Below are positions 34,011 through 54,430 of a DNA stretch of 64,000 nt, piece by piece. Within the stretch, counting starts at the first letter, position 1, and the number at the start of each line of letters is the position of its first letter. This stretch comes from a virus, in IMG/VR virus record IMGVR_UViG_3300036790_000286, positions 1-64,000 of that record; one strand, written 5' to 3'. The notes under the pieces were generated by a model. The model made no database searches and was not told the DNA's origin. It saw only the letters and a list, made by a program, of their open reading frames with translations. The position numbers and the translations under genes were made by a program.

Positions 34011-34025
34011 GGCGGAATAAAGATT

Positions 34026-34481: not shown

Positions 34482-34486
34482 CCGCC

Positions 34487-34507
34487 TTATGGTAATCTCT
34501 GCGCGCC
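34487..34507 (+). promoter_or_regulatory. Late promoter-like element, copy 7 (leaderless type)
   Basis: TGGTAATCT at 34490-34498 followed by CTGCGCGCC and then ATG 34508. It would drive the ejection-type and giant-protein genes. Confidence 0.7.
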
Positions 34508-35074
34508 ATGGCGACAGGTGCATCGGATACCGATAAAGACCAGCTGAATATGTACAACGGCGTCGAATCCGGCGCCCTCGGGAATTACAACTCCGATATC
34601 GGTAGCTATAACTCGAACATCAATTCCACCCTCGCCGCAGGGAATCCCTACGCTTCCCAGCCGTACCTCGAAAACCAAAATATTGCCACCTCCGGGGCGA
34701 TGAACGCCGCGAACACCCGGGAGGGGCAGCAGTTGCGTGACACCACCCGCCGGGCCGGCACGAATACCGCTGCCATCGCTGGCACGATTGCCGATTCGGC
34801 ACGCACCGGCCAGCGCGACCTCACCCAGTACAACGCGACCCAGGCGAACGAAAACGAAGACAAGTGGCTCAACGAGCAGCAGGGCCTGTTCCGCGATCAG
34901 CTGGCTGGGGCAAATAGCGAGGCGGGGGTTTACGGCACTGCAGTCGGCGGAGCAAACAACGCGACCTCCAACTACACGAGCGCCGAGAACGCACAGGACG
35001 AGATGTGGGGGCAGATCATCTCCGCCGGTGAAGCAGGGGCTGGCGCCGGAGCTGGGGCTGCGTTCCATGGGTAG
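34508..35074 (+). CDS. Ejection-type internal virion protein (188 aa)
   Basis: ATG 34508 lies directly against the late element. The product is almost entirely Ala/Asn/Gly/Gln/Thr-rich and helical (NTAAIAGTIADSARTGQRDL, then KWLNEQQGLFRDQLAGANSE) with a Gly/Ala tail. This composition is shared by small internal (ejection) proteins of podoviruses, which leave the head with the DNA and form a channel across the envelope. It starts the set of genes leading into the giant polyvalent protein. The role is inferred from composition and context. Confidence 0.5.
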   Translation: MATGASDTDKDQLNMYNGVESGALGNYNSDIGSYNSNINSTLAAGNPYASQPYLENQNIATSGAMNAANTREGQQLRDTTRRAGTNTAAIAGTIADSARTGQRDLTQYNATQANENEDKWLNEQQGLFRDQLAGANSEAGVYGTAVGGANNATSNYTSAENAQDEMWGQIISAGEAGAGAGAGAAFHG

Positions 35075-35081
35075 AGGGTAG

Positions 35082-36662
35082 ATGCCATACGATCCCGAGG
35101 ATGATGACGAGCAACCGGACGGCGCAACCAGCGCATTCGTCTATGGCGGTGGGGGCCAGGACGGACAGCAGCAGGGCCGCGGCATGTCGGGTTACGACCC
35201 CAGCAATCCCAATAAGGGGCTGTCCCCTTCTGACCCGCTCTACATCCCGGCAGTAGCAAATCCGAATGGCGCGCGTCCGGCTCCGAGTGCGGCGCCGAAT
35301 ACAACGCCGCCGCTTCCAGTGGTGACCAGCGCGCCATTGTCATCCTCGAACGGCAACGACGACGACGCGCTCCATGCCCGGACCTACAATCCAACCCCGT
35401 TGCCTCCAATGCCGGCATCCCGATACGCCGACGAGCAGCGGCTGGAGACGCAACTGGCGACACCGCCCCCGAACCGCGCCGACTACAAGCCGAGCATCGG
35501 CCGGCGAATCGGCGGGTCCATTGCGGCCGCGCTGGTGGGCATGGGGACCCACAATGCGGAGCAGGGCCTTCAGGTTGGAGAAAGCGCGATCGACGCGCCG
35601 TGGGATCGGGCCCAGGAGGCGTACCGGCAGAAACAGGCCCAGACTCAGCAGCAGCTCAACGCAGTGCGCGAGGGCGAAGACCTCGAGGGTCGTGAATGGG
35701 AGCGCGGACTTCAGCAGCACAACGCCGGAGAATCCGACTACAACACCTCAGAGCGCGCATACCAGGGGCAGGTGATGGCCCGCGACCGCGCCGCGCAGGA
35801 GAAGCAGCGGCTACAGGGCGTCGCTCCCGGAACCGAGCAGCCTGATGATCCTCAGAACAAAATGGGCGGTTGGCACGCTACGACCGTGGGAGGGCAGGCG
35901 ATCAAATTGAACGGACCGCCGGATTCCTGGCTGAAGACTCCTGAGGGGAAAGCTGCCAGCCAGGCCGCATCCGGCGACGCGCTGATTCGGAACCTGAAGG
36001 CGAACGGCACTCAGCTCACGCCCGAGGATGAGAAATACATCCGGGTGAACGGAAAGCTCCGCGAACCGAGCCCGACCACGACGATTCACAATGAGCCGGC
36101 GGGAAAGGCGGAGTGGGATGCCTATGTGAAATCCCTCGGCCATGACCCGACGACGCAGGAAGTCATCAACTTCAAGCGCAACGCCCCCGGAGGCGGAAGC
36201 ACCGCGAACAAGAACCTGCTCGATCGCATCGAGAGCCAGAAGAACACTGCGATCAGCAAGGCGCGCCAGCAATACGGCCAGGGCAAGGACCCCAGCTACA
36301 CGCTGGACGATTACCTCGATGACTGGCAGGCCGCGCAGGACAACTATGAAGATCGACTCGGTACGACGACGGGGCAGAATATCCCCCATACCGAAGTCCG
36401 GGATCACGTCGACAGCAAAGGCGTTTGGAAGACGGACGGCAAGGGTGGAGCAGCCCCAGCGCCGCAACCCTCGGCTGCAGCGCCCGCGCCCCGCGCCTCC
36501 GGGCCTCCCGCTGGATCAGTCGTCAGTACCCCATCCGGCAAGCAGGTAAAGATCGGAGACCCTGTCATTGTCGGCGGCCAGCGGTACACCGTGACGGGCT
36601 ACAACCCGCGCAGTGGAAAGCCGATCATCCAGCCAGCGCAGCAGCCTTCCGGAGCACAGTAA
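35082..36662 (+). CDS. Putative internal virion protein (526 aa)
   Basis: ATG 35082, seven bases after the previous stop. Residues 1-130 are disordered (Pro/Asn/Ser/Gly). Residues 140-175 contain a glycine-rich hydrophobic segment (RIGGSIAAALVGMGTHNA) that could insert in a membrane. Residues 180-260 are a Gln-rich coiled coil (RQKQAQTQQQLNAVREGEDL). The remainder is charged and helical with a small beta-rich domain at the end (VKIGDPVIVGGQRYTVTGY). This is consistent with an ejected core protein. The stop is followed two bases later by the start of the giant gene. Confidence 0.5.
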   Translation: MPYDPEDDDEQPDGATSAFVYGGGGQDGQQQGRGMSGYDPSNPNKGLSPSDPLYIPAVANPNGARPAPSAAPNTTPPLPVVTSAPLSSSNGNDDDALHARTYNPTPLPPMPASRYADEQRLETQLATPPPNRADYKPSIGRRIGGSIAAALVGMGTHNAEQGLQVGESAIDAPWDRAQEAYRQKQAQTQQQLNAVREGEDLEGREWERGLQQHNAGESDYNTSERAYQGQVMARDRAAQEKQRLQGVAPGTEQPDDPQNKMGGWHATTVGGQAIKLNGPPDSWLKTPEGKAASQAASGDALIRNLKANGTQLTPEDEKYIRVNGKLREPSPTTTIHNEPAGKAEWDAYVKSLGHDPTTQEVINFKRNAPGGGSTANKNLLDRIESQKNTAISKARQQYGQGKDPSYTLDDYLDDWQAAQDNYEDRLGTTTGQNIPHTEVRDHVDSKGVWKTDGKGGAAPAPQPSAAAPAPRASGPPAGSVVSTPSGKQVKIGDPVIVGGQRYTVTGYNPRSGKPIIQPAQQPSGAQ

Positions 36663-36664
36663 AA

Positions 36665-39600
36665 ATGTCCACGCAAGCCGTCACCCTCGACCCGGGGGAC
36701 GTTGAGGTACAGGGTGCGCAGAGCTCGGGCCAGCAACCAGTTTCCCTCGGCGCCGACGACGTAGAAATCGACAATTCAGCAGCCGAAGCCCACACCGCTG
36801 CGCAAACGCGCTCGGATCAGGCCATGCGAACTCTTGGTCAGGGAATGCTGGCCAATGAGACGGCCGCTTACCAGCCGCCGACGCTTCCGGCCGCCCCGAA
36901 CCTGGGACGGCCGCCAGCGCGCCAGCCTTCTGTCGCGCAAACCGCGCTGAATGACACCACGCCGCCGAGCAGCCGATTCGTTACCCCGCAGCAGCCAGCC
37001 CCAACCACCTACCAGGAGGCGACTACCCAGGCCTCGACGCACAACGCCCCGGTTCTCTCTCCCGGGGAGGTTGAGATTATCGGAGGCCCGCGGAGCGCGG
37101 CCCAGATCGCCGGACAGACCGACGTCCAGGAAGAACCCCTCGGCGCGGCCATCGCCGGGCCCGCACCCGGAACCCGCCCGATGAATCCTCAGGAGTCCGC
37201 GACCTACGAGAATAGTCCGCCTACGGGATTTGGAGCTGGACCGCAGCAGGCGGCACACGAGATATGGGAGGGTACCGGAGATATCGCGCGCGGCGCGGGA
37301 TACGGCGATGACCTCCAAATCGGTCCGCGTGATCCCTCAATGATGGCCCGAGGCGCAACCGAGACGATGCGTGGTGCCATGTACATGGGCACCCCGATGT
37401 TCGCTGAAGCTGCCGCCTCGGCTCCGGTCAAAGCCGGCCTGTCTTACCTGGCTGGCGTGGTGGGCGGAAAGGCAGCAGGGGCAGCGGCGAAGGCGGCCGG
37501 TCTCACTCCCGACGAGCAGGAATTCTGGAACACGGCTGGATTCTTCATCCCCAACGCGCTGACCGCACTGGCCGGCGTTCGGGGAGTGAGCGTTCAGGGA
37601 CCAGACGGAACCGCAGGCAAAGGCTTTACGGCGTTCGGTGGCCGAGTGGGCGGAGGCGTCGCGACCTCTCCCGAAGCCGTCGGTGCCGGCGTGCGGGTCG
37701 GGCCATTCTCCGCTTCGGTGGTCAAGCCCCGCGACGCTGGCGTGCAGTTCTCCACGCAAACCCCGACCGCGTTGCCGGATCCCGCCGAGGTATTGCGCCA
37801 GCAGCAGAACGACGCATCGATGAGAGCCGCCCTCGCCGCGGACGCTCTGGACCAGGCGTCTTCGAACGTGATCAACGGGAAGCCTCCAGTCCCGCCCCAA
37901 CCGAAACCGCCGATGCCGGCTGGGATGGATCAGGCCGTTCTCCACGCTGATACCGTGCAGCGAGTGGCTGGCGCCATCTCCATGGCCCCGCCGCAGATGC
38001 GTCCGCAGCTGACCATGGAGGCACACCAGAATCTCGCAAAGTGGATTGCCGAGAAGGGCACGGTCATGGGACCGGACGGCAGGATCGCCACGGCGAAAAC
38101 CCCGGAGCAGGCCAGCGCTATCGCGGCGAAATGGATCAATGACGAGGTCGCGCGGCAGGACACGGCGCGAAATGAGGCGGCGAAAGCGCAGAAGGAAGCT
38201 TCCGCAAAAGCCGCCTCAAATCAGGAAGGAAAAAATGAAGTGACCCCGCCGCCGACGCTCCAGCAGCGGGCACAGACGGTGATCGACGCGAACGAAGCTC
38301 AAACCCCCGTGCAGGTCGCGAAGACGCTTTTGCGGCAGGTTGGGATTCCGTATTCCCAGGGGCTTGAGATGGTGAAGCAGGCCCGGGCCGGAAAAGCCCC
38401 CTCGATCGAGACGGCCGGAGAACCGGTGGCGCCGGAAGCCAAGGCGGAGATTGACGGCAAGGTTGACGACCTGAAGGCGGGCAACGTGAAAGCGGTCCTG
38501 CTACCGGAGGGATCTTCTTACATCCCGACGCTACCGGAGGGAATCAAGCGGGTCGACGTGCGGCAGGGGCCGGGCGCTGGAACGTATCTATATGATCCGC
38601 AGGCGATCAGGGCGGCCACGATCAAAGCCGCCGCGAAGGCTGGTACCCACGAGGACCTGCTCGCGCCGAATGAGAATCCGGTTAAACAAAACGAGCCAGA
38701 ATCTTTAACAGAGCCGCCCGCTGTTAAACAAGAAGTTGCGTCTTCTTTGGCGCACGACGGCGATCCCCTTACTAGAGAAATAGAGGACAAGAATAACCTC
38801 CTTGCTTTTCAGCCGATACACCCCGACGATGTCCCTCCCGGGGCTAAACCAAACGAAGACGGAGAATTCGTTCTCGAAGTCATGGAGGAACCGACCGCCG
38901 GCAAGCTAGGAAAGATCATCGTTGGTCAAGTCAAGGAAGGCGCGCAACGGGGCAAATTCGTTCTCGGGAACCCCGTAAGGAAAGCGAAAACTACGGTTGG
39001 CGCTTCTGTTAAGCCACCTGCTCCGGAGCGCCGCCAGGACACCGGCCAGCGCCAGCGCGTGGCGGAGATGTCGCCCGAGGACATGCGCCGCACCCTGCTC
39101 ACCAGCGACAAGACCGGCCTGCCCAACCGTCGTGCCTTCGATGAAGCGGAGCACGGGCGGTCCGCCCCGGCGGTCGCCATGAGTGACGCCGACGGGCTGA
39201 AGGCCCTCAACGACAAATTCGGATATGCCGCCGGCGACGCCCTGCTCAAAGCCAAAGCTGAAGCCCTCCAGGCCGCAGGGCTCGAGGCTTACCACGACAA
39301 AGGCGACGAATTTCTCTACCGCGGCGCGTCTGCCAATGAGATAAAGGGAAAGCTGGAACGGGCGCGTGAGATCCTGCGCAACCGGACCATTGAGGTAGAA
39401 ACCACCGACGGAGAGACCCTTCGGTTCAAAGGAGCAGATTTCAGCTATGGCACAGGCGCAAACCTCGGAGAATCCGAAACCGCCCTCAAGTCCCACAAGT
39501 CCCAGCGCGAAGCCAGCGGAGAGCGGGCCCGTGGGGAGCTTCGAGGAATTACTGAAGTTGGACCCGAAAAAGGTGAAGTCGGTGAAGGTGCTGCCGCCGG

Positions 39601-42600
39601 GAGCCTAGCCGCCCGAGGCCCGGCGGCCACCATGGAAGCCGGCGCGGAGGCTCACCCGGCGCTTGCCCAGCTTCCCCGGGAACAGCAGCGCGCCGCCGCC
39701 GAACGGGACGTGGAGGCGCAGAAGGATCAGATGGCCGCGCAGCTCCGCCACCTCGGGCAGGCGGGCGCAGCTGAGTACGCAAGGGCAAACCCTGATCTGA
39801 AGTCGCTGGTCGACGACATCCTTTCCAGGCCGGAAGCATCCAAGGAGGTCAGCCATGTTGGATCAGCAGACAATCGCGGAGTTTCAGGAGCGGGCACGGA
39901 AGCTGGATCCCGCATCGCAGAAGCAGTTGGAGCGCATCCTGAAGGAGGGGGAGACAAACGGGAACCTGCACCCGGTGAGTCACCACTTCAGCCCCGAAGC
40001 GCTGAACCGGCAAAATACAAATACGGCAACACCCAGGCCGCCATCCCAAAGGGCAGCGACGCCGACCGCGCCCTCGCAGTAGCCCGCGCGCGCATCGACC
40101 CCAAAGACCTCATTTCCACCGAGTACGGCGGCAATAGCGAAGGCCTCGAGACCGAACCCCACATCACCCTCCGCTACGGCCTGAAGGACGAGGAGACCGC
40201 TGGCATCCGCGCGTTCCTCGAAAAGCAGGCCCCTTTCGAAGCCACCCTCGGAAAGACGACATCCTTCCCGCCCAGCAAGTCCAGCGACGGCGGAGCACCG
40301 ATCATCGCTCCCGTCGAAGCCGCCGACCTCCGCCGAATCGAAGCGGAACTGGATAAGCACGGCAATTTCATCGATCGCACATTCCCCGAATACAAGCCCC
40401 ACGCGACCCTCGGCTATGTGAAGCCGGAGACGGCCAGCAAGTATGTCGGGATGACCGAGACAGAAGGTAAGACCTTTCCGGTTAAGGCGATCGAGATATC
40501 AATGCGCGATGGAAGTAAAGAGGTGGTGCCGCTTAAAGGCGGATCATCCGCGCTCAATAAGACATACGAGGCTGAGGTCGCCAAGTTCGCCGGCGATCCA
40601 AAGGCGCGCATGGAGCGCGTCGAAGCCGAGAATCGCCGACACGCGGAACAGCTGCTTGCCGAGAAGTTCCCAGGTCAGCGCATCGGAAGCGCCGGCCGTG
40701 TCGAGCCCACAAGCTCCGGTGCCACCGCACCAGAGAAAACGATGGATAGGAAAGGAGGTCGCGGAGAATCTCCAGAGCAGACACCGGGCGCTGCCATTGC
40801 CAAGGGCGCCCGGGTGTCCTTCACCGATAGGACGGGGAAAGAGCGAACCGGGGTTGTCGCCCACACCGACGGCCGCATCGCACGGATCAAGGATGACACC
40901 GACCGAAAGAGCTATTCGGTGGCCGCCGCGAAAGTGAAATCCCTTGCTGCTGCCGGCGAACAGGCGCAGAATGAAGAAACCAATGCCAGCGGAATCGGAA
41001 AACCCGCAGGTCTCGCTGAAGCCGGAGGAGGACGCCCGGCTCCCGTCGCTGAAAGCTCGGATCGAGAGCGACTGGGAGAAGCATCGACCGGCGTACTTCC
41101 GGGAGTTGAAGGCGAAGGAAACGCTCCAGACGGAAATCAACCGGACCGCTCTGATGTGCGTGGAGACCTTGCACCAGTTTCAGAACAAGGGGCTGAACCC
41201 GGACCAGGCGCGGGAAGCGATACAGGAATTGATCGTGCCCCAGCCGGGCCGGTAATCAGGAAGGCCACTGCCGCCCTCGCAAAACCCAAAGCTCTCAACC
41301 GGGAATGGTTTTCCCATGCCGATGCGTGGAAGCCTCCCACGGGCACGGTCGGGCGCCTCGAAGCGAACCTCAACGCCATCCGCATCCTGCGCGACGTGGA
41401 GAAGTCCCCGCGCAAGCTCACCGACGCAGAGAAGGAAGCGCTCTCCAACTATGTCGGATGGGGCGCGCTCCAGCACGCCTTTATGCCCTACGGCGCGCCC
41501 CATGATGAGATTGGCCGCTGGCGCGCAGCGAACGCAGAGCTTCAGAAGTTGCTTACCCCCGATGAGCTAGCCCGCGCGCAGGAGTCGACGAAGAACGCCC
41601 ACTACACCTCTCCTGAGCTGGTTCGGTTCATGTGGGACACGATGGCGCGGTTCGGATTCAAAGCCGGCAACGTCCTCGAGCCCGCCGCCGGTACCGGGAA
41701 CTTTCTGGGGATGATGCCGAAGGGGCTGCGCGCGAAGGTCAACGCGATCGCGAACGAAATGGATGCGGTGAGCTTCGGTATCACCAAGCTCCTGTACCCT
41801 GGCGCCACCCTCTTTAATAAAGACTTTGCCGACCTTATCCTCCCGGACAACGACGTCGACGTAGCGATCGGCAACCCTCCGTTCGGCGGGTATAAGTTGT
41901 ATGACCCCACTTACAAAAAGCTGAATGCGCTGGTCCACGACTTCTTCTTTGTGAAGTCCCTCGACAAAGTGCGGCCGGGGGGCGTGCTCGCGTTCATCAC
42001 GTCGACGGGAACTCTGGACAAGATGGATCCCGATATCCGCAACATCCTCGCATCGAAAGCGGATTTCCTCGGAGCCATCCGGCTACCCTCCGGCGCCTTC
42101 AAGGCGAATGCCGGCACGGATGTCACGACCGACCTAATTTTTCTCCAGAAGCGGGCACCGGGCCAGACCGCGAAGCACGCCGCTGAGTGGACCAACTCTG
42201 TACCGCAGAGCCTTCCGACGAAGGAGGGCAACGCCGAGAACCTCAACGTCAACGAGTATTTCCAGAAGCACCCGGAGATGATGCTGGGCAAGCCCACAGC
42301 CTCGACCAAGATGTACGGCGGCATGGGATTCCTGCTCGAACCCCACGAAGGAAGGAGCATCCCCGATCTACTGAAGGAGGCACAGGGGAAGCTCCCGCGC
42401 GGGATCATCGCAGAGGCGGGCCAGCAGGCCACCGGTAACAACCTCGCATCGACTGCGGCGGAGTTTGCGCCCGATGCGCTCCACGAAGGACAGTACACCG
42501 TCGACGCCAAGGGCACACTGAAGCAGCGGGTCAACGGCAAACTCGTCAACCCCGAAGCGGTGCTCGACAAAGCTGGCAAACCGGTCTTCAGCAAGATCCA

Positions 42601-45600
42601 GCGGTTCAAGGCGCTGGTCGACGTGCGGGATTCCATGAACCGGCTTTTGTCGACCATGGTGACGGCGCCCGACGATGAGATTGGCAATTCGCTGGTGGCA
42701 GGCCTGAGGGAAAGCCTTCAGAAGGACTACGACGCCTTTGTTCGAAAGTACGGCTACCTCAACAGCTCCGCCAACGGGGCATTCCGGGACGATCCGCATT
42801 ATCCGCGGCTTCTGGCGCTGGAGACGTGGGACAAGGCCGCCCGCCAGGGAACGCCGGCCGATATCTTCCGCCGCCGCACCATCTTCCCCCGTGAAGAGCT
42901 TAGAGCGCTTCCCGAAGATCCCGCAGCGGCCCTTCAGCTGGTGCTTGCCGAGCGAGGTTTCCCCGACGTCCAGATGATGGGCCGGCTCCGCAATGAACCG
43001 GTTGCCAACGTGGTCAAGAAGCTGGCCGATCGCGGGCTAATCTATCGGAACCCGGCGAGCGGCAATTACGAGACGCGCGAAACCTACCTCTCGGGGTACG
43101 TGCGCGACAAACTGAAAGATGCGAAGCGCGCGGTCACGCAGGGGATGAAGGATTACGCGCCCAACGTTGAAGCGCTCGAAAAAGTTATCCCGGCCGATAT
43201 CGAGATTGGAGAAGACCCAAAGACCTCCATAGCCGTCCGCCTTGGATCGACGTGGATCCCGACCGATGCGATCGAGGAGTTTATCCGCGACACATTCAAG
43301 TCGCCCGGCACGGTCAAATACAACATCGGCAACTGGCAGGTCAGGAACATCCGGGACACCGCCGAGGCGCGAGGCCTTTACAGCACGCCCCGGGCCGGAT
43401 CCAGCGATCTTCTCGAAGACACGCTGAACCTGCGCCAGACCACCATCTACGACTACCATTCCGATGGTTCGCGGACCCTCAACAGCGACGCCACCACCGC
43501 CGCGCAGGCCGCTCAACAGAAGATTCGCGAGGCGTTCCAGCGGTGGGCTGTCGCTTCCCCGTGGAAGCCGGAGCTTCAGCGCCTCTATAACGATGCCTAC
43601 AACAATCTGGCGCAGGTGGAATACGACGGTTCGCACCTCACCTTCCCGGGGATGAACTCCTCCATCCGCCTCACTGCGCACCAGGTGAATGCCGTTTGGC
43701 GGATCCTCCAGGACGGGCGGGCGCTCCTGGCGCACGTCGTTGGCGCCGGTAAGACCTTCGAGATGGTGGCCGCCGCAATGGAGGGGCGGCGCGTCGGCAC
43801 GTTCAAAAAGCCGATGATCACCGTACCCAACCACATCGTGGAGCAGTTCCGCCAGGAATTCCTGCACCTCTACCCCGGGGCGAATCTGCTGGTGCCGTCC
43901 GAGACCGACTTCGATGCAAAGAACCGCCAGCGGATCATGTCACGCATCGCGACCGGAAACTTCGATGCGGTGATCCTTCCTCACTCACAGTTCAACCTGA
44001 TGGATATCTCTCCCGAGCGCCAGCGGGTCACCATCCAGAAGCAGAAGGCGGAGCTGCGCGAGACAATCCAGGCGGTTGCGGAGCAGGAGGGAAAAAAGAG
44101 CCGCACGGTTAAGCAGCTGGAAAAGGCGATGGCCGCGCTGGACGCGACGCTCAAGAAACTCGCTGACCTAAAAGCCGACAAGGCCATCAACTTCGACGAC
44201 ACGGGCATCGACCAGCTATTCGTGGACGAAGCCCACATGTACAAGAACCTGAGTTTCTACACGAAGATGACGCGCATTGCCGGGCTGCAACAGGCGAAGG
44301 CGAAGAGTGCGCTCCGCCTGAAGATGAAGACGGAATACCTGCAGGACCGCAATGGCGGCCGCGGGGTGGTCTTCGCTACCGGCACCCCGGTCCAGAACAC
44401 CATGGCAGAGCTCTACACCATGTTTAAGTACGTCGCGCCCGATGTCCTTGAAAAGGCCGGTATCCGCTTCTTCGACGATTGGGCCGCTAACTTCGGCAGC
44501 GTAATTACGGCGATGGAGTTAGCCGCCGACGGTCGCAGTTACAAGGCGCGTTCGAAGTTCGCACAGTTCCAGAACGTGCCGGAGCTGATGAATATGTTCC
44601 GCTCCTTCGCGGACATCAAGACCGCCGAGGACCTGAACCTTCCCACGCCGGAGCTTGAGACCGGCAAACCGATCGTGGTTCCGGTGCCGGCGTCGCCGCG
44701 TCTCGAGGCTTTCGTCTCCCACCTGATGGAGCGGGCCGAGAGGGTAAAGAGTGGGAGCGTGGACCCGCGCGTTGACAACATGTTGAAGATCACGACGGAC
44801 GGGCGCAAAGCCGCAACCGACATGCGGCTGATCGACCCCACCCTCCCCGACGATACGGACTCGAAGATCAATAAAGCCGTCGATACGATGTTCGAGGTAT
44901 GGAAGGACGGCAAGGAGGAACTCTCCGCCGGCCCCACTACGCAGATGGGGTTTCTGGATCTCTACCGCTCGATCGAGGGCGGGAAAACCGAGGACGGGAC
45001 GAAGATCCCGGAGAAGGAGCTGATCAACCTCTACCGCGACATCAAGAAAAAGCTGATGGAGCGTGGCGTCCCGGCAGAGCAGATTGCCATCATCGGGGAG
45101 CACGATACCAGGGTGAAGCGGCAGGCGCTTTTCTCCGCCATGAATGCGGGCAAAGTCCGCATCCTTCTGGGATCCACCTTCAAGATGGGCGCCGGCACGA
45201 ATGCCCAGCGGTTGCTGAAAGCTCTCCACCACATCGACCTGACGTGGCGACCCGGTGACCTCGAGCAGCGGAACGGCCGGGCGGTGCGCCAGGGGAATCT
45301 GAACCCCTCTGTGCGGCTTTACAACTACCTGACCGAGCGCAGCTTCGACGCTTACATGGCGCAGACCCTTCAGGGCAAAGCCGAATTTATCTCTCAGGTG
45401 ATGAGCGGCCGGAACAAGCAGCGGGTGATGGCCGATGCGGCGAGCGAAATGGTGTTGTCGCTGGAGGAGATGAAGATTGCGGCCTCGGGCAATCCCGACG
45501 TGAAGATCCAGTACGACCTCCAGATGCAGGCGGCACAGTTGCGGGCGCTGGAGCGCAACTTCTTCAGCCAGCGCCGGATGAACCAGCAGGAGGCGAGTAT

Positions 45601-48600
45601 GGCCTCCATGCGCGCCGACAGGTTCGAGGCAGATGTAACCGCGCTGTCAACTGCAACTGAGAAGATCAAAGCCGCCGAGGCGACAGGCGCCGAAGACGGA
45701 AAGGGTATCAAGGTTGAGGTCGACGGGAAGACCTTCACCGATCGCAAGGCGCTTTTCGATCACCTCGAAGCCATGGACATTCCGCCGGTCAACTTCCACA
45801 TGACGTGGAACGGCATCGGAGTCGCCGTCGAAGTGAAACCGGCAAACAAGGAATCGCAGGCCCAGGGAATCTCCGGGCTCAACTACCAGCCGGATTACAT
45901 TACAGGGCGAAATTTTGCCGCCCCGAGCCGGGACATGACATCGCTGGCCCGATCGCTCGAATCCCGTCTCCGGCAAATCCCCACCGACCTTGAAGAGGCG
46001 AAGGTGGAGTTGCCCCGGCTCCGCGCGAAGGCCCAGCGGCTGGACGAAATTGCACAGTCGAAGGACTTCCCGGAGAAAGCGCAGATGGAGAAGGTAGAGA
46101 AGGAGTTGGCCGAGGTGGAACGCCGGCTCGGGATTCGCTCCGACGTTGAGAACGCGATGGCGCAGGCGGTCACCGCCGAGGTTAGCGACGACCCCGAGGA
46201 AGACCTGCTCTCAGACAATGATGGCGAGGAGGACCCGGAGGCGGAGGAGCAGCAGGAGGATGCGGACAAAGCCGACGAAGGAATCGCGGAACGGGACGAG
46301 ACCCCACGGCCCGGCGTGGTGTTGCGTTCTTCCCTGCTCGGTCTGGACGTGCTGGCGGAGTTTGCGGCGAAGCAGGGGAAAGTTCTGTGGGACGCAGATA
46401 TCGCCCCCAACCTCTCCACCTTCGGCGAGGGGGCCAGGAGCGCCGGCAAAGCAATCGTCAACGTGCTCTATCCGCGGCTGGGAGCCAACGATGACGCGCA
46501 GGACATTCTGGCGCGGGCGCGAGGCAAACTCGAATCGCACCTGTTCCACCTCGAGACGCTGGATGGCGGCCTTGAGAAATTCTTCGAAGCCATGCCGCGC
46601 GATGGGCAACTGGCGTTTATCGACCGCTACAAGCTCGGAGTGGGGCAACCCGACGCGCGCCTCCAGCAGATCGAGGACATCATGCGCCGCATCGACGATG
46701 CCTCCCTGCGGGAAGCCCAGCGCTATAAGCCCACGCTCCAGGCGAAGGAAGACCACTTCCGGGTCATCTGGAAGGTGGTCCCGTTCGGGGGTGGCGCTCA
46801 GGGCGGGAAGACGGCGCAGTTCGCTAAGACGAAACGCCCGTGGCAGGGAGACAAAGGATTCATGCGGCGTGCGACCCTCGATACGATCAGCGAGGGCATC
46901 AACGCTGGCGGGGTTCCTGTCACCACCAATCCATGGAAGCTCTTTACGCTGGCGCAATCCAGCATGATGAAGTTCATCTCGGCACAGCAGGCCTGGGCGG
47001 CAGCCAAGACAGTCGGGCTGCGGAAATATGTCGAGCGTGGACAGCAGGTGCCGGAGGGATGGGTCAAGATCAACGACCGCATCGCGGACGTGTATTTCCC
47101 GGAAAAGGCACTCTCCGTCGACGTCGACCAGCTGCCCACGCGAACGCTCGGACCGCAAAAGAAAGAGTGGGTAGCCAAGGAAGACCTTGAAACCCATCGC
47201 GTTATGGCGAACCCGGGAAGCTGGTACGGCGAGCCCGGCTTCGGACGGCTGCTCAACAATTACCTGAGCCCCGACCTTCTGCGGCAGTCTGCGCTCGGGA
47301 AAGGGTTGCTGTTCGCCAAGAACCTCAGCACCGCGATCGAGCTGGGAATGTCGCCGTTCCACCTTATCTTTGAAACGCTGGAGGCGATGGGTTCGCAGTT
47401 CGGCCTCGGAGTGCAGCGCGTGTGGAACAACGGCGTGCGCCTTGGAGACGGCCGGGAACTCACACGGGGTATGACGGAGATTGGCTCCGCCGTGGCAGCC
47501 CCCTTCCTGATTTCCCACGCTGGCGGTAGCCTCAAACGCTTCGCGACAGATCCCGCGCAGTTCTTCTCTACCACGCGCGGCCAGCGCTTCCTGCGGCAAT
47601 ATCCGAACGCCGCGGGCGCGATGCAGGAGTTGTTCAATGGCGGGCTCACCTGGGGCATCCAGAGGGATTACCGGTTCGATCCGCAGAAGAGCATGATCGA
47701 AGCGGCGAAGGAGGGGAATTACATCGGGGCAGTTCTCCGCGTGGCGCCGTGGATCAATACCGTCCTGATGAAGCCGCTGTTTGAGGCGTACATCCCGCGG
47801 CTGAAGTGGGGCCTGGCGCTACAGCAGTATTCTCAGCAGCTCGTCGAAAATCAGGAGGCGCTCGGCAACGGTGACATGACCCGCACCGAGATTGCGCGCA
47901 AGGTAGCGGACACGGTAGAGAACCGGTTCGGCGAGATGAACTTCAACAATATCTACTGGAACAACACATTCAAGAGCGTGCTCCAGTTGCTGTTCCGTTC
48001 GGTGACGTGGAAGCTCGGAAACTGGCGTGGCCTTGGCTCGGCAGCGGGTCCTGAGGCGTTCAGCGCCTTCCGGGATCCACTCGAAGCCATGCGCAAGAAT
48101 GCGCGGTCGAGCAAGGGCACCGGGCCGGGAGCGCGCGCCGGCGAATACATTCCCAGGATCGGCATGAACCAGGCGTGGATACTCGGGATGGTGGCCACCA
48201 CGGCCGTCATCGGAAGCATCCTCACCCGCTACTGGACCCGTAAATGGCCGTGGGAAATCGCGAGCGAAGATCGGGAGGAGGGTTATTCCCTGCCGGGCGC
48301 GCTGGCACTGGAGGTGGTACACCCGCGCACCGGGCGCATCAACCAATTCACCGGGAAACCGGAACGGCTGTCGTTGCCCACCGGGCTCCGGGACTTTGAG
48401 CACGCCTTCCGTGACCCCGGCGGTTACATCAAAGGTTCGCTCTCCGGGACGGTGAGCCACCTATACGACACGCTGGAGAATCAGGACGCTTTCAAAAACT
48501 ACGTCTACGATCCGAACGGGAGTCTCTACCGGAAGACCGCCGATATCTTCGCCTACAACATGCCGGAGCCCATCTCGTTTCAGAACTGGCATAACCAGAA

Positions 48601-48958
48601 CGGCGCCGTCGACACCGAAAGTCGGGTTCTCCGCGCTGCCGGCGTCGGCAATGCCTCTTCCTCGCTGGACTATTCCCCCGCCGAGACGCGGATGCGGGCG
48701 GTGCGCTTCCACCAGCCGCAGACCCCGGAGCAGATGAAGGCCAGGGAGCAGGAGCACATGCAGCCAACTCGCACACAGATCCGCCGTGCGATCAGGGACG
48801 GCAAGCTCGATTACGCGCAGAAGCTGTTCCGCGGTTTGAGTTACGCCGAGGCTCGGGACATCTACGACAATTACGCCACGCCGGCCGAGCGGGCCGAGCT
48901 CGCAGGGATGCTCCGCGAGAAGCGCAATCGCACCCTCCAGCGCGAAGGGCGGCAATAA
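36665..48958 (+). CDS. Giant polyvalent protein: GGDEF-like, 2H phosphoesterase, N6-methyltransferase, SNF2 helicase (4097 aa)
   Basis: ATG 36665 is chosen because the frame upstream overlaps the previous gene. Domains: disordered N-terminus with a glycine-rich hydrophobic patch (about 257-285). GGDEF-like domain (about 810-930; DKTGLPNRRAF, SDADGLKALND, and KGDEF near 879, where the first signature Gly is Lys). 2H phosphoesterase (about 1140-1260; PHITL near 1166, PHATL near 1246). A small KOW/SH3-like stretch (1375-1425). N6-type DNA methyltransferase (LEPAAGTGNF 1670, NPPFGG 1737). SNF2-type helicase (GAGKT 2360-2364, DEAH 2521-2524, ATGTPVQN 2571, motif VI near 2870). Coiled coil (2950-3200). 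Large C-terminal module with one hydrophobic helix (about 3840). This is the polyvalent-protein plan of phages and conjugative elements (compare P1 DarB): co-injected proteins that protect entering DNA from host defences. Three +1-frame genes overlap its linkers. Confidence 0.85.
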   Translation: MSTQAVTLDPGDVEVQGAQSSGQQPVSLGADDVEIDNSAAEAHTAAQTRSDQAMRTLGQGMLANETAAYQPPTLPAAPNLGRPPARQPSVAQTALNDTTPPSSRFVTPQQPAPTTYQEATTQASTHNAPVLSPGEVEIIGGPRSAAQIAGQTDVQEEPLGAAIAGPAPGTRPMNPQESATYENSPPTGFGAGPQQAAHEIWEGTGDIARGAGYGDDLQIGPRDPSMMARGATETMRGAMYMGTPMFAEAAASAPVKAGLSYLAGVVGGKAAGAAAKAAGLTPDEQEFWNTAGFFIPNALTALAGVRGVSVQGPDGTAGKGFTAFGGRVGGGVATSPEAVGAGVRVGPFSASVVKPRDAGVQFSTQTPTALPDPAEVLRQQQNDASMRAALAADALDQASSNVINGKPPVPPQPKPPMPAGMDQAVLHADTVQRVAGAISMAPPQMRPQLTMEAHQNLAKWIAEKGTVMGPDGRIATAKTPEQASAIAAKWINDEVARQDTARNEAAKAQKEASAKAASNQEGKNEVTPPPTLQQRAQTVIDANEAQTPVQVAKTLLRQVGIPYSQGLEMVKQARAGKAPSIETAGEPVAPEAKAEIDGKVDDLKAGNVKAVLLPEGSSYIPTLPEGIKRVDVRQGPGAGTYLYDPQAIRAATIKAAAKAGTHEDLLAPNENPVKQNEPESLTEPPAVKQEVASSLAHDGDPLTREIEDKNNLLAFQPIHPDDVPPGAKPNEDGEFVLEVMEEPTAGKLGKIIVGQVKEGAQRGKFVLGNPVRKAKTTVGASVKPPAPERRQDTGQRQRVAEMSPEDMRRTLLTSDKTGLPNRRAFDEAEHGRSAPAVAMSDADGLKALNDKFGYAAGDALLKAKAEALQAAGLEAYHDKGDEFLYRGASANEIKGKLERAREILRNRTIEVETTDGETLRFKGADFSYGTGANLGESETALKSHKSQREASGERARGELRGITEVGPEKGEVGEGAAAGSLAARGPAATMEAGAEAHPALAQLPREQQRAAAERDVEAQKDQMAAQLRHLGQAGAAEYARANPDLKSLVDDILSRPEASKEVSHVGSADNRGVSGAGTEAGSRIAEAVGAHPEGGGDKREPAPGESPLQPRSAEPAKYKYGNTQAAIPKGSDADRALAVARARIDPKDLISTEYGGNSEGLETEPHITLRYGLKDEETAGIRAFLEKQAPFEATLGKTTSFPPSKSSDGGAPIIAPVEAADLRRIEAELDKHGNFIDRTFPEYKPHATLGYVKPETASKYVGMTETEGKTFPVKAIEISMRDGSKEVVPLKGGSSALNKTYEAEVAKFAGDPKARMERVEAENRRHAEQLLAEKFPGQRIGSAGRVEPTSSGATAPEKTMDRKGGRGESPEQTPGAAIAKGARVSFTDRTGKERTGVVAHTDGRIARIKDDTDRKSYSVAAAKVKSLAAAGEQAQNEETNASGIGKPAGLAEAGGGRPAPVAESSDRERLGEASTGVLPGVEGEGNAPDGNQPDRSDVRGDLAPVSEQGAEPGPGAGSDTGIDRAPAGPVIRKATAALAKPKALNREWFSHADAWKPPTGTVGRLEANLNAIRILRDVEKSPRKLTDAEKEALSNYVGWGALQHAFMPYGAPHDEIGRWRAANAELQKLLTPDELARAQESTKNAHYTSPELVRFMWDTMARFGFKAGNVLEPAAGTGNFLGMMPKGLRAKVNAIANEMDAVSFGITKLLYPGATLFNKDFADLILPDNDVDVAIGNPPFGGYKLYDPTYKKLNALVHDFFFVKSLDKVRPGGVLAFITSTGTLDKMDPDIRNILASKADFLGAIRLPSGAFKANAGTDVTTDLIFLQKRAPGQTAKHAAEWTNSVPQSLPTKEGNAENLNVNEYFQKHPEMMLGKPTASTKMYGGMGFLLEPHEGRSIPDLLKEAQGKLPRGIIAEAGQQATGNNLASTAAEFAPDALHEGQYTVDAKGTLKQRVNGKLVNPEAVLDKAGKPVFSKIQRFKALVDVRDSMNRLLSTMVTAPDDEIGNSLVAGLRESLQKDYDAFVRKYGYLNSSANGAFRDDPHYPRLLALETWDKAARQGTPADIFRRRTIFPREELRALPEDPAAALQLVLAERGFPDVQMMGRLRNEPVANVVKKLADRGLIYRNPASGNYETRETYLSGYVRDKLKDAKRAVTQGMKDYAPNVEALEKVIPADIEIGEDPKTSIAVRLGSTWIPTDAIEEFIRDTFKSPGTVKYNIGNWQVRNIRDTAEARGLYSTPRAGSSDLLEDTLNLRQTTIYDYHSDGSRTLNSDATTAAQAAQQKIREAFQRWAVASPWKPELQRLYNDAYNNLAQVEYDGSHLTFPGMNSSIRLTAHQVNAVWRILQDGRALLAHVVGAGKTFEMVAAAMEGRRVGTFKKPMITVPNHIVEQFRQEFLHLYPGANLLVPSETDFDAKNRQRIMSRIATGNFDAVILPHSQFNLMDISPERQRVTIQKQKAELRETIQAVAEQEGKKSRTVKQLEKAMAALDATLKKLADLKADKAINFDDTGIDQLFVDEAHMYKNLSFYTKMTRIAGLQQAKAKSALRLKMKTEYLQDRNGGRGVVFATGTPVQNTMAELYTMFKYVAPDVLEKAGIRFFDDWAANFGSVITAMELAADGRSYKARSKFAQFQNVPELMNMFRSFADIKTAEDLNLPTPELETGKPIVVPVPASPRLEAFVSHLMERAERVKSGSVDPRVDNMLKITTDGRKAATDMRLIDPTLPDDTDSKINKAVDTMFEVWKDGKEELSAGPTTQMGFLDLYRSIEGGKTEDGTKIPEKELINLYRDIKKKLMERGVPAEQIAIIGEHDTRVKRQALFSAMNAGKVRILLGSTFKMGAGTNAQRLLKALHHIDLTWRPGDLEQRNGRAVRQGNLNPSVRLYNYLTERSFDAYMAQTLQGKAEFISQVMSGRNKQRVMADAASEMVLSLEEMKIAASGNPDVKIQYDLQMQAAQLRALERNFFSQRRMNQQEASMASMRADRFEADVTALSTATEKIKAAEATGAEDGKGIKVEVDGKTFTDRKALFDHLEAMDIPPVNFHMTWNGIGVAVEVKPANKESQAQGISGLNYQPDYITGRNFAAPSRDMTSLARSLESRLRQIPTDLEEAKVELPRLRAKAQRLDEIAQSKDFPEKAQMEKVEKELAEVERRLGIRSDVENAMAQAVTAEVSDDPEEDLLSDNDGEEDPEAEEQQEDADKADEGIAERDETPRPGVVLRSSLLGLDVLAEFAAKQGKVLWDADIAPNLSTFGEGARSAGKAIVNVLYPRLGANDDAQDILARARGKLESHLFHLETLDGGLEKFFEAMPRDGQLAFIDRYKLGVGQPDARLQQIEDIMRRIDDASLREAQRYKPTLQAKEDHFRVIWKVVPFGGGAQGGKTAQFAKTKRPWQGDKGFMRRATLDTISEGINAGGVPVTTNPWKLFTLAQSSMMKFISAQQAWAAAKTVGLRKYVERGQQVPEGWVKINDRIADVYFPEKALSVDVDQLPTRTLGPQKKEWVAKEDLETHRVMANPGSWYGEPGFGRLLNNYLSPDLLRQSALGKGLLFAKNLSTAIELGMSPFHLIFETLEAMGSQFGLGVQRVWNNGVRLGDGRELTRGMTEIGSAVAAPFLISHAGGSLKRFATDPAQFFSTTRGQRFLRQYPNAAGAMQELFNGGLTWGIQRDYRFDPQKSMIEAAKEGNYIGAVLRVAPWINTVLMKPLFEAYIPRLKWGLALQQYSQQLVENQEALGNGDMTRTEIARKVADTVENRFGEMNFNNIYWNNTFKSVLQLLFRSVTWKLGNWRGLGSAAGPEAFSAFRDPLEAMRKNARSSKGTGPGARAGEYIPRIGMNQAWILGMVATTAVIGSILTRYWTRKWPWEIASEDREEGYSLPGALALEVVHPRTGRINQFTGKPERLSLPTGLRDFEHAFRDPGGYIKGSLSGTVSHLYDTLENQDAFKNYVYDPNGSLYRKTADIFAYNMPEPISFQNWHNQNGAVDTESRVLRAAGVGNASSSLDYSPAETRMRAVRFHQPQTPEQMKAREQEHMQPTRTQIRRAIRDGKLDYAQKLFRGLSYAEARDIYDNYATPAERAELAGMLREKRNRTLQREGRQ
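38680..39000 (+). other. A+T-richer, codon-atypical segment inside the giant gene
   Basis: Codons such as TTA, AAA, GAA, ACT and AGA, rare elsewhere in the window, cluster here. The encoded stretch lies just before the GGDEF-like domain (ELQ-type acidic linker, then GEFVLEVMEEPTAGKLGKI). This suggests that the linker, and possibly the adjoining domain, was acquired separately. Confidence 0.4.
39447..39608 (+). CDS. Small +1-frame gene nested in the giant gene, no. 1 (53 aa)
   Basis: ATG 39447, with AAAGGAG about 12 bases upstream, opens a frame shifted +1 to the giant gene and stops at TAG 39608. The product is MAQAQTSENPKPPSSPTSPS..., then SFEELLKLDPKKVKSVKVL, a small protein with a disordered half and an amphipathic helix. 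Codon third positions are G/C-biased in this frame, while the giant frame here reads as Gly/Glu/Ala/Arg low-complexity. It may be a true overprinted gene or an old separate gene bridged by the giant frame. Confidence 0.5.
   Translation: MAQAQTSENPKPPSSPTSPSAKPAESGPVGSFEELLKLDPKKVKSVKVLPPGA
39855..40082 (+). CDS. Small +1-frame gene nested in the giant gene, no. 2 (75 aa)
   Basis: ATG 39855 is preceded by a near-perfect AAGGAGG 7 bases upstream, the strongest independent signal among the nested genes. The product opens with a helix MLDQQTIAEFQERARKLDPA and continues SQKQLERILKEGET; coding quality drops after about residue 52, where the giant frame becomes codon-like again. The giant frame over the first part (HVGSADNRGVSGAGTEAG) looks like an out-of-frame translation. 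A real small protein between the GGDEF-like and 2H domains is the best reading. Confidence 0.6.
   Translation: MLDQQTIAEFQERARKLDPASQKQLERILKEGETNGNLHPVSHHFSPEALNRQNTNTATPRPPSQRAATPTAPSQ
40971..41255 (+). CDS. Small +1-frame gene nested in the giant gene, no. 3 (94 aa)
   Basis: ATG 40971 (a TTG at 40944 is possible) opens a +1 frame that stops at TAA 41253-41255. The product is helical and charged, with segments LPSLKARIESDWEKHRPAYF and RTALMCVETLHQFQNKGLNP, resembling small phage proteins that end near a GLxxDQAxEAI motif. Third-position G/C bias is strong here. The giant frame over the same bases is Gly/Ala/Glu/Asp-rich and featureless, and then resumes good coding just before the methyltransferase domain. 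Ribosome site weak. Confidence 0.6.
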   Translation: MKKPMPAESENPQVSLKPEEDARLPSLKARIESDWEKHRPAYFRELKAKETLQTEINRTALMCVETLHQFQNKGLNPDQAREAIQELIVPQPGR

Positions 48959-48978: not shown

Positions 48979-49512
48979 ATGCCAGCGAAAACGACGAAAC
49001 GTAAGTCCCCCCGCAAACAACCCCTCGCCATCCTCAGCGAAGAGGACCGCACCTTTGTCCACCTTTCCATAAAGTTGGGACCAGAGAAGGCCGCCGCGCA
49101 CCTCGGCTGGAAGCCGGAGCAGGTGGAAGGACTGATGCGGATCAAGGCCTTCCGCGATTACCTCAAGCGCTATGAGGCACAGTTCCTGAAGACCATGGCA
49201 TCGTGGGAAGTAACCCAGGTCACGAAGTTTCCCGTTGGGCGCGGCGACGTCCTCGGCCGTCTGATCGCGCTGGCCCTGCTGCCGCCGGAAGACACGAAGG
49301 GCACCATCGACGGACAGGTAGAAGCGCTCAACGCCATCAGCGAAATCCTCGGGCTGAAGTTTTCCCCGCGCGATGCCGATGCCTATTTCAAAGACAAGAC
49401 CCCCGATCAGATCAAAAACTATGCGCTTCACGGCAAGTGGGATTTGACCGAGGAGGAGAAGAAGGCCGCCGATGCCGAGCCAGCCAAGTCCGATGGCGCT
49501 GATTCCAATTGA
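48979..49512 (+). CDS. Terminase small subunit-like protein
   Basis: A 177-residue protein directly upstream of the large terminase genes. Residues 20-70 contain an HTH-like segment (LGPEKAAAHLGWKPEQVEGL) suited to recognising the packaging site. Residues 75-140 are helical and would form the oligomerisation core. The C-terminus is Lys/Glu/Asp-rich and would contact the large subunit. It starts at the eighth late element. The next gene begins 41 bases before its stop, with its ribosome site inside it. Identification is by position, size and HTH. Confidence 0.7.
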   Translation: MPAKTTKRKSPRKQPLAILSEEDRTFVHLSIKLGPEKAAAHLGWKPEQVEGLMRIKAFRDYLKRYEAQFLKTMASWEVTQVTKFPVGRGDVLGRLIALALLPPEDTKGTIDGQVEALNAISEILGLKFSPRDADAYFKDKTPDQIKNYALHGKWDLTEEEKKAADAEPAKSDGADSN

Positions 49513-50251
49513 CGTTGAGTGGATACTGCGCGCAAAGGCGCGGCGCATCACCGAGCAGAACGAAGAAACTCTCGCGCGCGCCCGGGACGTGGAACATAAC
49601 GTTTCGGATACAGAGATGGCGGAGCAAAACCGCCGGGTGCGCGAGGCGACGGCCGATGAGCTGACCTGGCTGCAGAACTACACCGCCACGCACAACCCTC
49701 ACTGGAAGGAAGAGGACCGGCCCAACCCCTACGAGCCGTTCCCGGACAAACCCTACTTCCGATGCCTCTTTGACTTCCTGAATGCTCCGGGGAAGGTCAA
49801 GCCGATCGAGAAGTCCCGCGACATGATGATCACCTGGGGCATCATGGGGTACTTCACGCTGGAGGCGATGAAGGTTCCAGAGCGGGAAATCGTGTGCCAG
49901 ACGATGGAGGAGACCAAGGCGAAGGAGAACGTCTTCTACGCCCGCACGCTTTACACCCGTCAACCGGAGTGGCTGAAGCAGGCTTTCCCACTGTCGAAGC
50001 CGCTGGACAGGATGGCGGAGAACGAGTTGTCTTTCGCCAATGGGAGCATCATCTGGGGTATTGCGGGCGGCGCCGGCAAGCTGCGCACCTATCACCCGTG
50101 GGGCTACTTCAATGATGAGACGGCGTTCCAGCCCGAAGCCGGATTCTCATATGATGAGTCGCTTTCCGCCGTTCAGAAGATCGTCCTGAACTCAACCGCA
50201 TGGCCGGGATGGTACTTCGATTGGTTGAACGACGTGGAGGTTACGAGTTGA
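49472..50251 (+). CDS. Terminase large subunit, ATPase part (split gene)
   Basis: ATG 49472 overlaps the small-subunit gene and follows a GAGGAGAAG ribosome site. The 259-residue product covers the N-terminal ATPase domain of a large terminase. It has a Walker A-like EKSRDMMITW around Lys114 (the deviant P-loop of terminases) and a Walker B YFNDETAF with Asp215-Glu216. The last residues, WPGWYFDWLNDVE, normally lead into the linker before the nuclease domain. Here the frame stops at TGA 50249-50251, and the nuclease is a separate frame starting 2 bases later. It powers DNA translocation into the procapsid. Confidence 0.8.
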   Translation: MPSQPSPMALIPIDVEWILRAKARRITEQNEETLARARDVEHNVSDTEMAEQNRRVREATADELTWLQNYTATHNPHWKEEDRPNPYEPFPDKPYFRCLFDFLNAPGKVKPIEKSRDMMITWGIMGYFTLEAMKVPEREIVCQTMEETKAKENVFYARTLYTRQPEWLKQAFPLSKPLDRMAENELSFANGSIIWGIAGGAGKLRTYHPWGYFNDETAFQPEAGFSYDESLSAVQKIVLNSTAWPGWYFDWLNDVEVTS

Positions 50252-50252
50252 A

Positions 50253-51338
50253 ATGAACGCGATGGAAGCGGCACTCCGAAGGCTGAACTCCATGGATGCG
50301 CAGGCGCGCATTGAAGTCATCCCCGGGGTGCAGCTCCGGCGCAAGGAAAACGGCATCCCCGTTCTCACCATTCACTATTCGGCGGATCCCGACCGCAATC
50401 CGGCAACGCCAACCGGGGCAGCATGGTTTGAGACCGCGCGCGCAGAGCAGTCCAGCCAATCCGCATGGGACAGGGAGCAGGAGATTCAACCGCTGGCCGG
50501 CGGCGGCGAACGGGTATTCGGAAGGGTGCTGGGCCAGTTCCACGATGCAGTGGTGATAACGAGGGAGGATTGGTTCCCCGATCCTCGGTGGGACGTGGTG
50601 GCCGGCTTCGACCACGGCAAGACCAACGCCACCGCGCTGCTCAAGTGCTATGTGGACTTCACCGGGAATCTTTATTTTGCGGGCGAGTATTACTCGATGG
50701 CACGGAAGAATTGGGCCAACGACGTGGCGATGAATGCTCCCGAGATGCTGAAGATGCCCGACCTGAATAAGATGCGCTGGTGCGTGGCCGACCCGTCTAT
50801 CTTCCCGGACTCTGAGTTACAGAAGGATGGAACCTACGCCTCAGTGAATACGACGTATCGCCGGCACGGGGTGAATTTCCTGAAGCAGTTTGAAGGGGAG
50901 CGCAGTGATCTTACCTTTGTGGAGCGGGTGCTGTCGGATTACTGGCGGGATCTGGAACATCTCCAGCCCAAGCTCTTTATCGTCTGCCGGAACGAGAGCG
51001 ACCGTATCCAGCCTGGCCTCCATCCCTACGACTGCCCCAACCTGCTGTGGGAGTTGAACCGGGCCAAGCGTGCGCAGCTCACGGCGCGGCAACTGCTCTC
51101 GCGCAACCCCACCGAGAACATCGTCGACAAGTGGAACCACGCGCGCGACGCCATGAAATACATCATCTTCACGGTGCGGAAGCCGGCCGAAGTCCCGTTG
51201 GGAGACCAGCTCCAACAGGTGATTGCCGAACTGAACCCCACCAGCGCGGCGATCGCGGCACAGCGGTTCTACGCGGAGAAGGTAAAGACGCGGCAGGTAA
51301 CCAGTGTCAGCATGAGGCGGAAGGCTCGGATGCGGTAG
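50253..51338 (+). CDS. Terminase large subunit, nuclease part (split gene)
   Basis: ATG 50253 in the +1 frame relative to the ATPase gene, with GGAGG 13 bases upstream inside it. The 361-residue product starts with a helical hinge segment (MNAMEAALRRLNSMDAQARI) and contains the RNase H-like nuclease. The metal-binding acidic residues are in GFDHGKTN (Asp120), CVADPS (Asp180) and NIVDKWNHARDAMKY (Asp292/Asp299). The C-terminus is basic. It cuts the DNA concatemer at the start and end of packaging. The two genes together give a complete enzyme of about 620 residues; either two subunits assemble or a frameshift joins them. Confidence 0.82.
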   Translation: MNAMEAALRRLNSMDAQARIEVIPGVQLRRKENGIPVLTIHYSADPDRNPATPTGAAWFETARAEQSSQSAWDREQEIQPLAGGGERVFGRVLGQFHDAVVITREDWFPDPRWDVVAGFDHGKTNATALLKCYVDFTGNLYFAGEYYSMARKNWANDVAMNAPEMLKMPDLNKMRWCVADPSIFPDSELQKDGTYASVNTTYRRHGVNFLKQFEGERSDLTFVERVLSDYWRDLEHLQPKLFIVCRNESDRIQPGLHPYDCPNLLWELNRAKRAQLTARQLLSRNPTENIVDKWNHARDAMKYIIFTVRKPAEVPLGDQLQQVIAELNPTSAAIAAQRFYAEKVKTRQVTSVSMRRKARMR

Positions 51339-54173: not shown

Positions 54174-54430
54174 GCGATCACCTCCGTCACCCGTTCAAAG
54201 ATCAGCAGCTTCCGCCATAACTTCCTCCAAACAAAAAGTGCTTTGGCGGAAGCTGTGAGCAGGACCAGTTTTTCCTCGGGTCCAACAAATAGGGCTGGGT
54301 CGCGGCCGTCTCTATATGGCCTATAGGTGTAATGTCGGCGGAAGATCGTGCGGCATGTGTGATTGCCATCCCGCACTTCGATCCACCACCTATCGAGTTC
54401 GATCAGAAAGGGCTGCACACCGTTCACCAT
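54170..54430 (-). CDS. Truncated Mom-like acyltransferase-type protein (86 aa)
   Basis: ATG 54430 overlaps the end of dnaB by 7 bases. The sequence up to residue 70 (WWIEVRDGNHTCRTIFRRHY, then DPALFVGPEEKLVLLT and ALFVWRK) resembles the N-terminal half of small phage GNAT-type proteins related to Mu Mom, which hypermodify adenine in DNA. Full relatives continue for about 80-100 more residues with a second conserved block; here the chain ends after KLWRKLLIFERVTEVIA. It is therefore probably a 3'-truncated gene fused to unrelated codons. Reading it as a complete small protein is possible but less likely. The relation is from memory of the family pattern. Confidence 0.5.
   Translation of the reverse strand: MVNGVQPFLIELDRWWIEVRDGNHTCRTIFRRHYTYRPYRDGRDPALFVGPEEKLVLLTASAKALFVWRKLWRKLLIFERVTEVIA

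Follow-up and report, generated by a model that had tools for sequence, protein, structure and literature searches.

The closest described relatives of the protein analysed here are the polyvalent proteins of Iyer et al (2017), which likewise combine a DarB-type dyad with enzyme domains of unrelated kinds within a single giant protein of a phage (PMC5512222). GGDEF, RelA/SpoT and 2H domains are named there among the domains of polyvalent proteins, and it was proposed that such domains interfere with nucleotide-activated defence, RNase activity or RNA end repair being considered equally likely for the 2H domains. DarB of phage P1 is packaged in the virion and is antirestrictive (PMC5512222, PMC6630229). 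The Acetonema longum GGDEF-SNF2-MTase-zincin-ART protein constitutes a direct precedent for the present protein (PMC5512222). In size range, the latter is similar to gp21 of Atu_ph08 (4877 aa; Bcep22/PBC5-type podophages), a giant methylase-helicase of T7-like phages (PMC6630229). The DNA examined, referred to as the window, comprises positions 1 to 64,000 of the virus record IMGVR_UViG_3300036790_000286, which has 67,318 bases in total.

The giant gene and its surroundings

A single open reading frame of the record unites four domains, GGDEF, 2H, methyltransferase and helicase (Table 1). The frame is intact over 4097 codons and a stop; GGAG lies 10 nt upstream of its ATG at 36665, and two bases separate this ATG from the stop of the preceding gene. 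Several functionally unrelated domains are fused in this mobile-element protein and the methyltransferase-SNF2 helicase dyad stands in one chain, which are both marks of DarB-class polyvalent proteins. A sequence-only reading of the same DNA had described a 4097-residue polyvalent protein with GGDEF, 2H, N6-methyltransferase and SNF2 helicase domains, and all four were recovered by Pfam, PHROG and motifs. Its DarB-class assignment is corroborated by phrog_10089 ("DarB-like antirestriction"), which spans aa 1304-3199 with E = 0, by the Pfam SNF2-rel_dom match at aa 2353-2608 (E 9e-7), and by the motifs NPPF (position 1737), GAGKT (2360) and DEAH (2521). The Pfam Eco57I-type methyltransferase match at aa 1714-1796 (E 1e-3) is below cut-off; besides NPPF, EPAAGTGNF is present at 1672.

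Table 1. Features of the giant gene and of the slot that it occupies, in window coordinates.
Feature	Position	Strand	Basis
4097-aa polyvalent protein gene	36665..48958	+	ORF reading, PHROG match, start site
N-terminal region, aa 1-789, Ala/Pro-rich, without known domain	36665..39031	+	Pfam, motif scan
GGDEF module, aa 790-966, phage-type subfamily	39032..39562	+	Pfam, alignment, AF2/Foldseek
KGDEF active-site motif, aa 879-883	39299..39313	+	sequence, family alignment
2H phosphoesterase module, aa 1131-1292	40055..40540	+	Pfam, alignment, AF2/Foldseek
First HxT motif, HIT, aa 1166-1168	40160..40168	+	H and T in 54/55 relatives (one gap)
Second HxT motif, HAT, aa 1246-1248	40400..40408	+	H and T in 54/55 relatives
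N6-adenine methyltransferase, aa 1600-1900; EPAAGTGNF, NPPF	41462..42364	+	Pfam, PHROG, motifs
SNF2-type helicase, aa 2300-3010; GAGKT, DEAH	43562..45694	+	Pfam, PHROG, motifs
C-terminal module, aa 3240-4097, also present in many relatives whose payloads differ; without known family	46382..48955	+	slot comparison
Upstream virion-type (tail/decoration-like) gene, conserved; payload-blind slot marker	29457..32207	+	slot comparison, profile scans
Conserved upstream slot genes 32211, 34026, 34508, 35082	32211..36662	+	slot comparison
Small conserved downstream slot gene	48979..49512	+	slot comparison
Large terminase, ATPase half	49472..50251	+	homologue L064 vs phrog_2 TerL, E 4.9e-6; fused with next gene in L201
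Large terminase, nuclease half	50253..51338	+	homologue L048 vs phrog_5653 TerL, E 0.0026; fused with previous gene in L201

Relatives of the dyad were gathered by an IMG/VR scan, and 48 records of GenBank phages cover at least 80% of the dyad-region query, with about 35-38% identity over the dyad. The GenBank phages gave no named relatives of the C-terminal part of the giant protein, nor of the tail-like and capsid-like proteins. A motif scan of the 4097 residues found no PLxRFG motif, and no membrane segment emerged when hydrophobicity was simply averaged over 19 residues (threshold, mean above 1.6). The GGDEF and 2H domains recur in dozens of other phage contigs at 30-76% identity with their motifs kept, and contig L043 repeats the order GGDEF-2H-MTase-helicase in a 4151-aa frame; the combination is therefore not a product of chance.

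The giant gene is situated in the virion gene cluster, with tail-like genes on one side and a two-gene large terminase on the other, a position that slot comparison brings out and that agrees with the injected package proposed from the sequence alone. Where flanks are comparable, the order is some or all of 29457, 32211, 34026, 34508 and 35082, then the giant gene, then 48979, 49472 and 50253. In the same slot, relatives carry giants whose payloads change among RelA/SpoT-like, 2H, GGDEF and methyltransferase-helicase modules. Since homologues of both 49472 and 50253 score against large-terminase families and the pair forms a single frame of 735 aa in L201, these two genes are the halves of TerL. 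The split terminase (49472-51338, +) is kept in many relatives (L003, L038, L048, L064). Further along the window, a DnaB-like helicase gene (54424-57126, -) is interrupted, after DnaB_N and before the remainder of DnaB_C, by an intein-like insert that bears a LAGLIDADG homing endonuclease, and an N6/N4 DNA methyltransferase gene (52809-54173, -) differs from phrog_67 by an insert of ~200 aa, which may be a second intein.

The GGDEF and 2H modules

The GGDEF-like domain with the altered signature KGDEF, as announced by the sequence-only reading, is matched by Pfam GGDEF over aa 816-910 (E 2.8e-6, 27.6 bits, cut-off 23.8). The AlphaFold model built from the family alignment (pLDDT 88.9) has the GGDEF fold, with GGDEF cyclases as its nearest solved structures in Foldseek (4urg, E 5e-9; PleD 2v0n, E 5e-8), so that match and fold together identify the module as a GGDEF domain. 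In a search of viral models, its nearest match was the GGDEF protein of Bordetella phage CN1, with a TM of 0.83 over the target. Relatives were gathered by IMG/VR scans, and no plasmid relatives were found. The metal-binding aspartate and the guanine-binding asparagine and aspartate of active diguanylate cyclases are present as D841, N849 and D858; in a set of 25 members, D841, N849 and GDEF occur in all 25, and position 858 is an aspartate in 18 members and an asparagine in 7. This replacement at the base-recognition position would be expected to alter guanine specificity. The family alignment contains no RxxD inhibitory (feedback) site. Diguanylate cyclases work as dimers.

The module departs at the first position from the signature of active diguanylate cyclases, (G/A/S)G(D/E)EF. 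As this position is K in 18 of the 25 relatives (S in 3; Q, H, A and G in one each), the KGDEF form is a family trait and not damage. In VCA0965, the only cyclase in which all residues were tested at the first position, G, A, H and M were functional and all others, including lysine, were not (PMC3974145); the authors warned that tolerance at this position varies between enzymes (PMC3974145). Since lysine abolished the function of VCA0965, c-di-GMP synthesis by the window module is uncertain. Of the evidence on the nucleotide role that had been suggested for the domain, the conserved catalytic residues speak for it, and the lysine, inactive in VCA0965, speaks against it. An mCpol/Panoptes-type cyclase is not favoured, because Pfam and Foldseek both point to GGDEF cyclases; mCpol was present in 1 of 200 Terriglobales-order genomes. 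Standalone GGDEF proteins of the KGDEF subfamily are encoded in Acidobacteriota MAGs and one viral contig (L025:9962-10588, L008:9962-10606, L026:9953-10480), the gene of L025, an Acidobacteriota MAG, lying near a recombinase-like gene.

For the 2H phosphoesterase, Pfam 2_5_RNA_ligase2 matches aa 1162-1276 (E 6e-10, 39.8 bits, cut-off 27), and the two HxT motifs, HIT and HAT, lie in a predicted 2H fold, which places the module in the 2H superfamily as had been claimed. Both motifs are kept in 54 of 55 2H domains of the relatives gathered by IMG/VR scans. The AlphaFold model is weaker than that of the GGDEF (pLDDT 77, two of five models good). Structure prediction, which covers these two domains of the giant protein and had been named in advance as a way in which the claims might fail, thus gives both folds. 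In Foldseek, the leading neighbours are archaeal 2'-5' RNA-ligase-like proteins, the penguinpox cGAMP phosphodiesterase (E 1.7e-4, among the top three) and Usb1. Kinship with Acb1 holds at the level of the 2H fold, but membership of the Acb1 family is rejected (Pfam Acb1 13.5 bits, cut-off 27), and Acb1 appears structurally only at rank 22 (E 0.027). Two 2H relatives score 24.9 and 26.6 bits for Pfam Acb1, 26.6 being the best. No solved 2H protein was matched by sequence in a PDB profile search with the family.

Payload exchange and hosts

The relatives differ in the modules that they combine: GGDEF-2H-MTase-Hel in the window, RelA-GGDEF-2H-MTase-Hel in L043, RelA-2H-MTase-Hel in L020, RelA-2H-GGDEF in L006 and L010, 2H-GGDEF in L003, L019 and L030, RelA-2H in L014 and L040, and MTase-Hel alone elsewhere, most of them being metagenomic contigs, and many giant frames being cut off at locus ends. 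The RelA/SpoT calls are Pfam matches just under cut-off (23.5-24.8 bits vs 27), extended with a profile built in this analysis. A payload-blind scan with the 29457 family yielded 19 slots in which 1300 aa or more could be seen; GGDEF was present in 7, 2H in 9 and RelA in 4. Time and again, and more often than chance would give, 2H lies close to a GGDEF or RelA/SpoT module, in keeping with the sequence-only reading: with shared ancestry handled only by an 85% redundancy filter, 5 of 8 non-redundant proteins had a 2H-GGDEF gap of at most 60 aa (0.6-0.9 expected; p <= 0.0009), and 7 of 14 had such a gap between 2H and RelA (1.6-1.9 expected; p about 0.001). The window protein itself lies outside the close 2H-GGDEF pairs (gap 171). 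Co-occurrence of payload modules within slots is only suggestive, the association of 2H with GGDEF not being significant (Fisher p 0.17) and that with RelA or GGDEF giving p 0.07. The dyad of L080 is 81-82% identical to that of the window, whereas the tail-like and C-terminal parts are about 30% identical, so the modules move independently of their surroundings. In L020, identity to the window is 69% for the helicase, 64% for the 2H and 28% for the tail.

Judging from the genomes that contain its slot marker, this phage group has hosts among the Terriglobales (Acidobacteriota). Of 397 genomes from the order to which a Terriglobales MAG belongs, 34 contain the 29457-family marker, several matching it only in part. 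In L200, a locus from one of these genomes, the whole slot is present, with tail-like genes, then a 2H giant of 2688 aa, a RelA gene of its own and the terminase. The 2H alignment returned nothing at E 1e-6 from 297 Acidobacteriota genomes, L200 and L203 having surfaced later through the tail-like marker. A separate RelA/SpoT-like gene of 497 aa lies just downstream of the 2H giant in the same slot in L200 (16830-18320) and L048 (16330-17820). Of 200 genomes of the order, 18 contain SMODS CD-NTases that score above the cut-off, and CBASS-type targets therefore exist in it. From gene content, the phage is probably short-tailed.

Proposed function and comparison with known systems

What can be read from the sequence is a predicted methyltransferase-SNF2 dyad with two interchangeable enzyme modules upstream, encoded in a virion and packaging cluster. 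We consider it rather likely that this is a DarB-class polyvalent protein, packaged and injected, whose dyad protects DNA and whose swappable GGDEF and 2H modules act on nucleotides, the payload part of the gene being a shuffling site that gains and loses RelA/SpoT, 2H and GGDEF modules against a conserved virion gene order. The protein would be packaged in the virion and enter the cell with the DNA, on which the dyad may translocate, methylating it against restriction. The 2H module would cleave host cyclic or 2',3'-cyclic phosphodiesters, either nucleotides that serve in defence or the RNA ends that defence RNases leave behind, and the GGDEF module may bind GTP-like nucleotides and make, or be retuned to bind, a nucleotide signal. 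The injected counter-defence function proposed by the sequence-only reading is plausible but unproven, and that reading as a whole is supported in part.

A role in RNA metabolism instead of second-messenger signalling is rather unlikely; in such a role, the 2H would act as an RNA end-processing enzyme of the Usb1/LigT type or as an RNase, and the GGDEF would bind GTP as a regulatory or structural part, with no cyclase activity. The 2'-5' RNA-ligase-like proteins and Usb1 among the best structural neighbours of the 2H, the equal likelihood that Iyer et al gave to RNA functions (PMC5512222) and the inactivity of KGDEF by analogy with VCA0965 (PMC3974145) are all consistent with it. However, the invariance of the metal- and base-binding residues of the GGDEF, with phage-wide identity of up to 74%, exceeds the needs of a scaffold, the modules near which the 2H clusters, RelA/SpoT and GGDEF, represent two types of nucleotide-messenger synthetase, and a poxvirus cGAMP phosphodiesterase is within its top three neighbours. 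The conserved acid residues could instead indicate a diguanylate (or hybrid) cyclase active at entry, reprogramming the host, for example through c-di-GMP control of motility or surface, with no counter-defence. Although the lack of a feedback site in the alignment and the standalone copies in phages and Acidobacteriota genomes would suit such a cyclase, the first glycine is lysine in 18 of 25 members and the base-recognition aspartate is Asn in 7 of 25, for which reason c-di-GMP is an unlikely common product of the family; we hold this explanation to be unlikely. An ordinary late protein for structure or ejection, carrying along decaying enzyme domains, is a highly improbable alternative: the gene does sit in the virion cluster and some relatives are without GGDEF, but the catalytic motifs are nearly invariant over divergent relatives, contrary to decay, and the modules are better conserved than the neighbouring virion proteins.

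A more specific form of the counter-defence proposal can also be envisaged, in which an injected pair would both break and make signals. The 2H would destroy host defence nucleotides, and the GGDEF (or RelA/SpoT) would supply another by which competing or guard effectors (TIR-STING or Panoptes-like) stay inactive; this we regard as distinctly unlikely. Equally speculative, as a part of it, is the notion that the supplied nucleotide would prevent depletion alone from triggering suicide. The precedents are indirect and analogous: a phage NTase makes competing cGAMP against TIR-STING (PMC10419184), and Panoptes relies on decoy nucleotides (PMC12657218). Should the modules of the favoured polyvalent protein be active and injected, a dominant soil phylum would have phages that bring pre-made anti-restriction and anti-nucleotide-immunity enzymes in one molecule, acting before the expression of any phage gene. 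The fixed slot with its variable payload amounts to a natural library in which to look for the nucleotide enzymes that are worth packaging, and the prediction of 2017 becomes directly testable on small excised domains.

Among known systems, Acb1, the anti-CBASS phosphodiesterase, is likewise phage-encoded, with a 2H fold and two HxT motifs, but it is a small standalone protein, whereas the window 2H is a module of a giant and resembles it only weakly in sequence score and structure. Bordetella phage CN1 and its relatives share the GGDEF subfamily (33% identity) and the same C-terminal motif; unlike the window, CN1 has it as a separate gene of 152 aa with AGDEF. That gene (L034:8049-8507) lies directly upstream of one annotated as antirestriction protein. 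ORF321 of the jumbo phage Tunturi_5, which has an Acidobacteriota host, lies in a virion gene cluster and encodes a polyvalent protein with a related 2H (39%); it differs in its zincin, ADP-ribosyltransferase-like and acetyltransferase-like companions, read from sequence, and has neither dyad nor GGDEF. ORF321 (L035:4567-8655) is annotated as MutT/NUDIX. The DarB-like giants of Bcep22/PBC5-type phages, in contrast to that of the window, have cell-wall hydrolase, transglycosylase or peptidase N-termini (PMC6630229), and the virion proteins of the window, unlike those of these phages, are without named relatives in GenBank phages. The general idea of nucleotide-signal enzymes in polyvalent proteins was already published in 2017 (PMC5512222); the passages of that article considered here do not describe GGDEF, 2H and the dyad in one chain, adjacent RelA, 2H and GGDEF modules, or a syntenic payload-swapping slot. 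New here are the union of the four domains, which two contigs share, the closeness of 2H to messenger synthetases, the slot with its exchangeable payload, and a phage GGDEF subfamily with a lysine signature.
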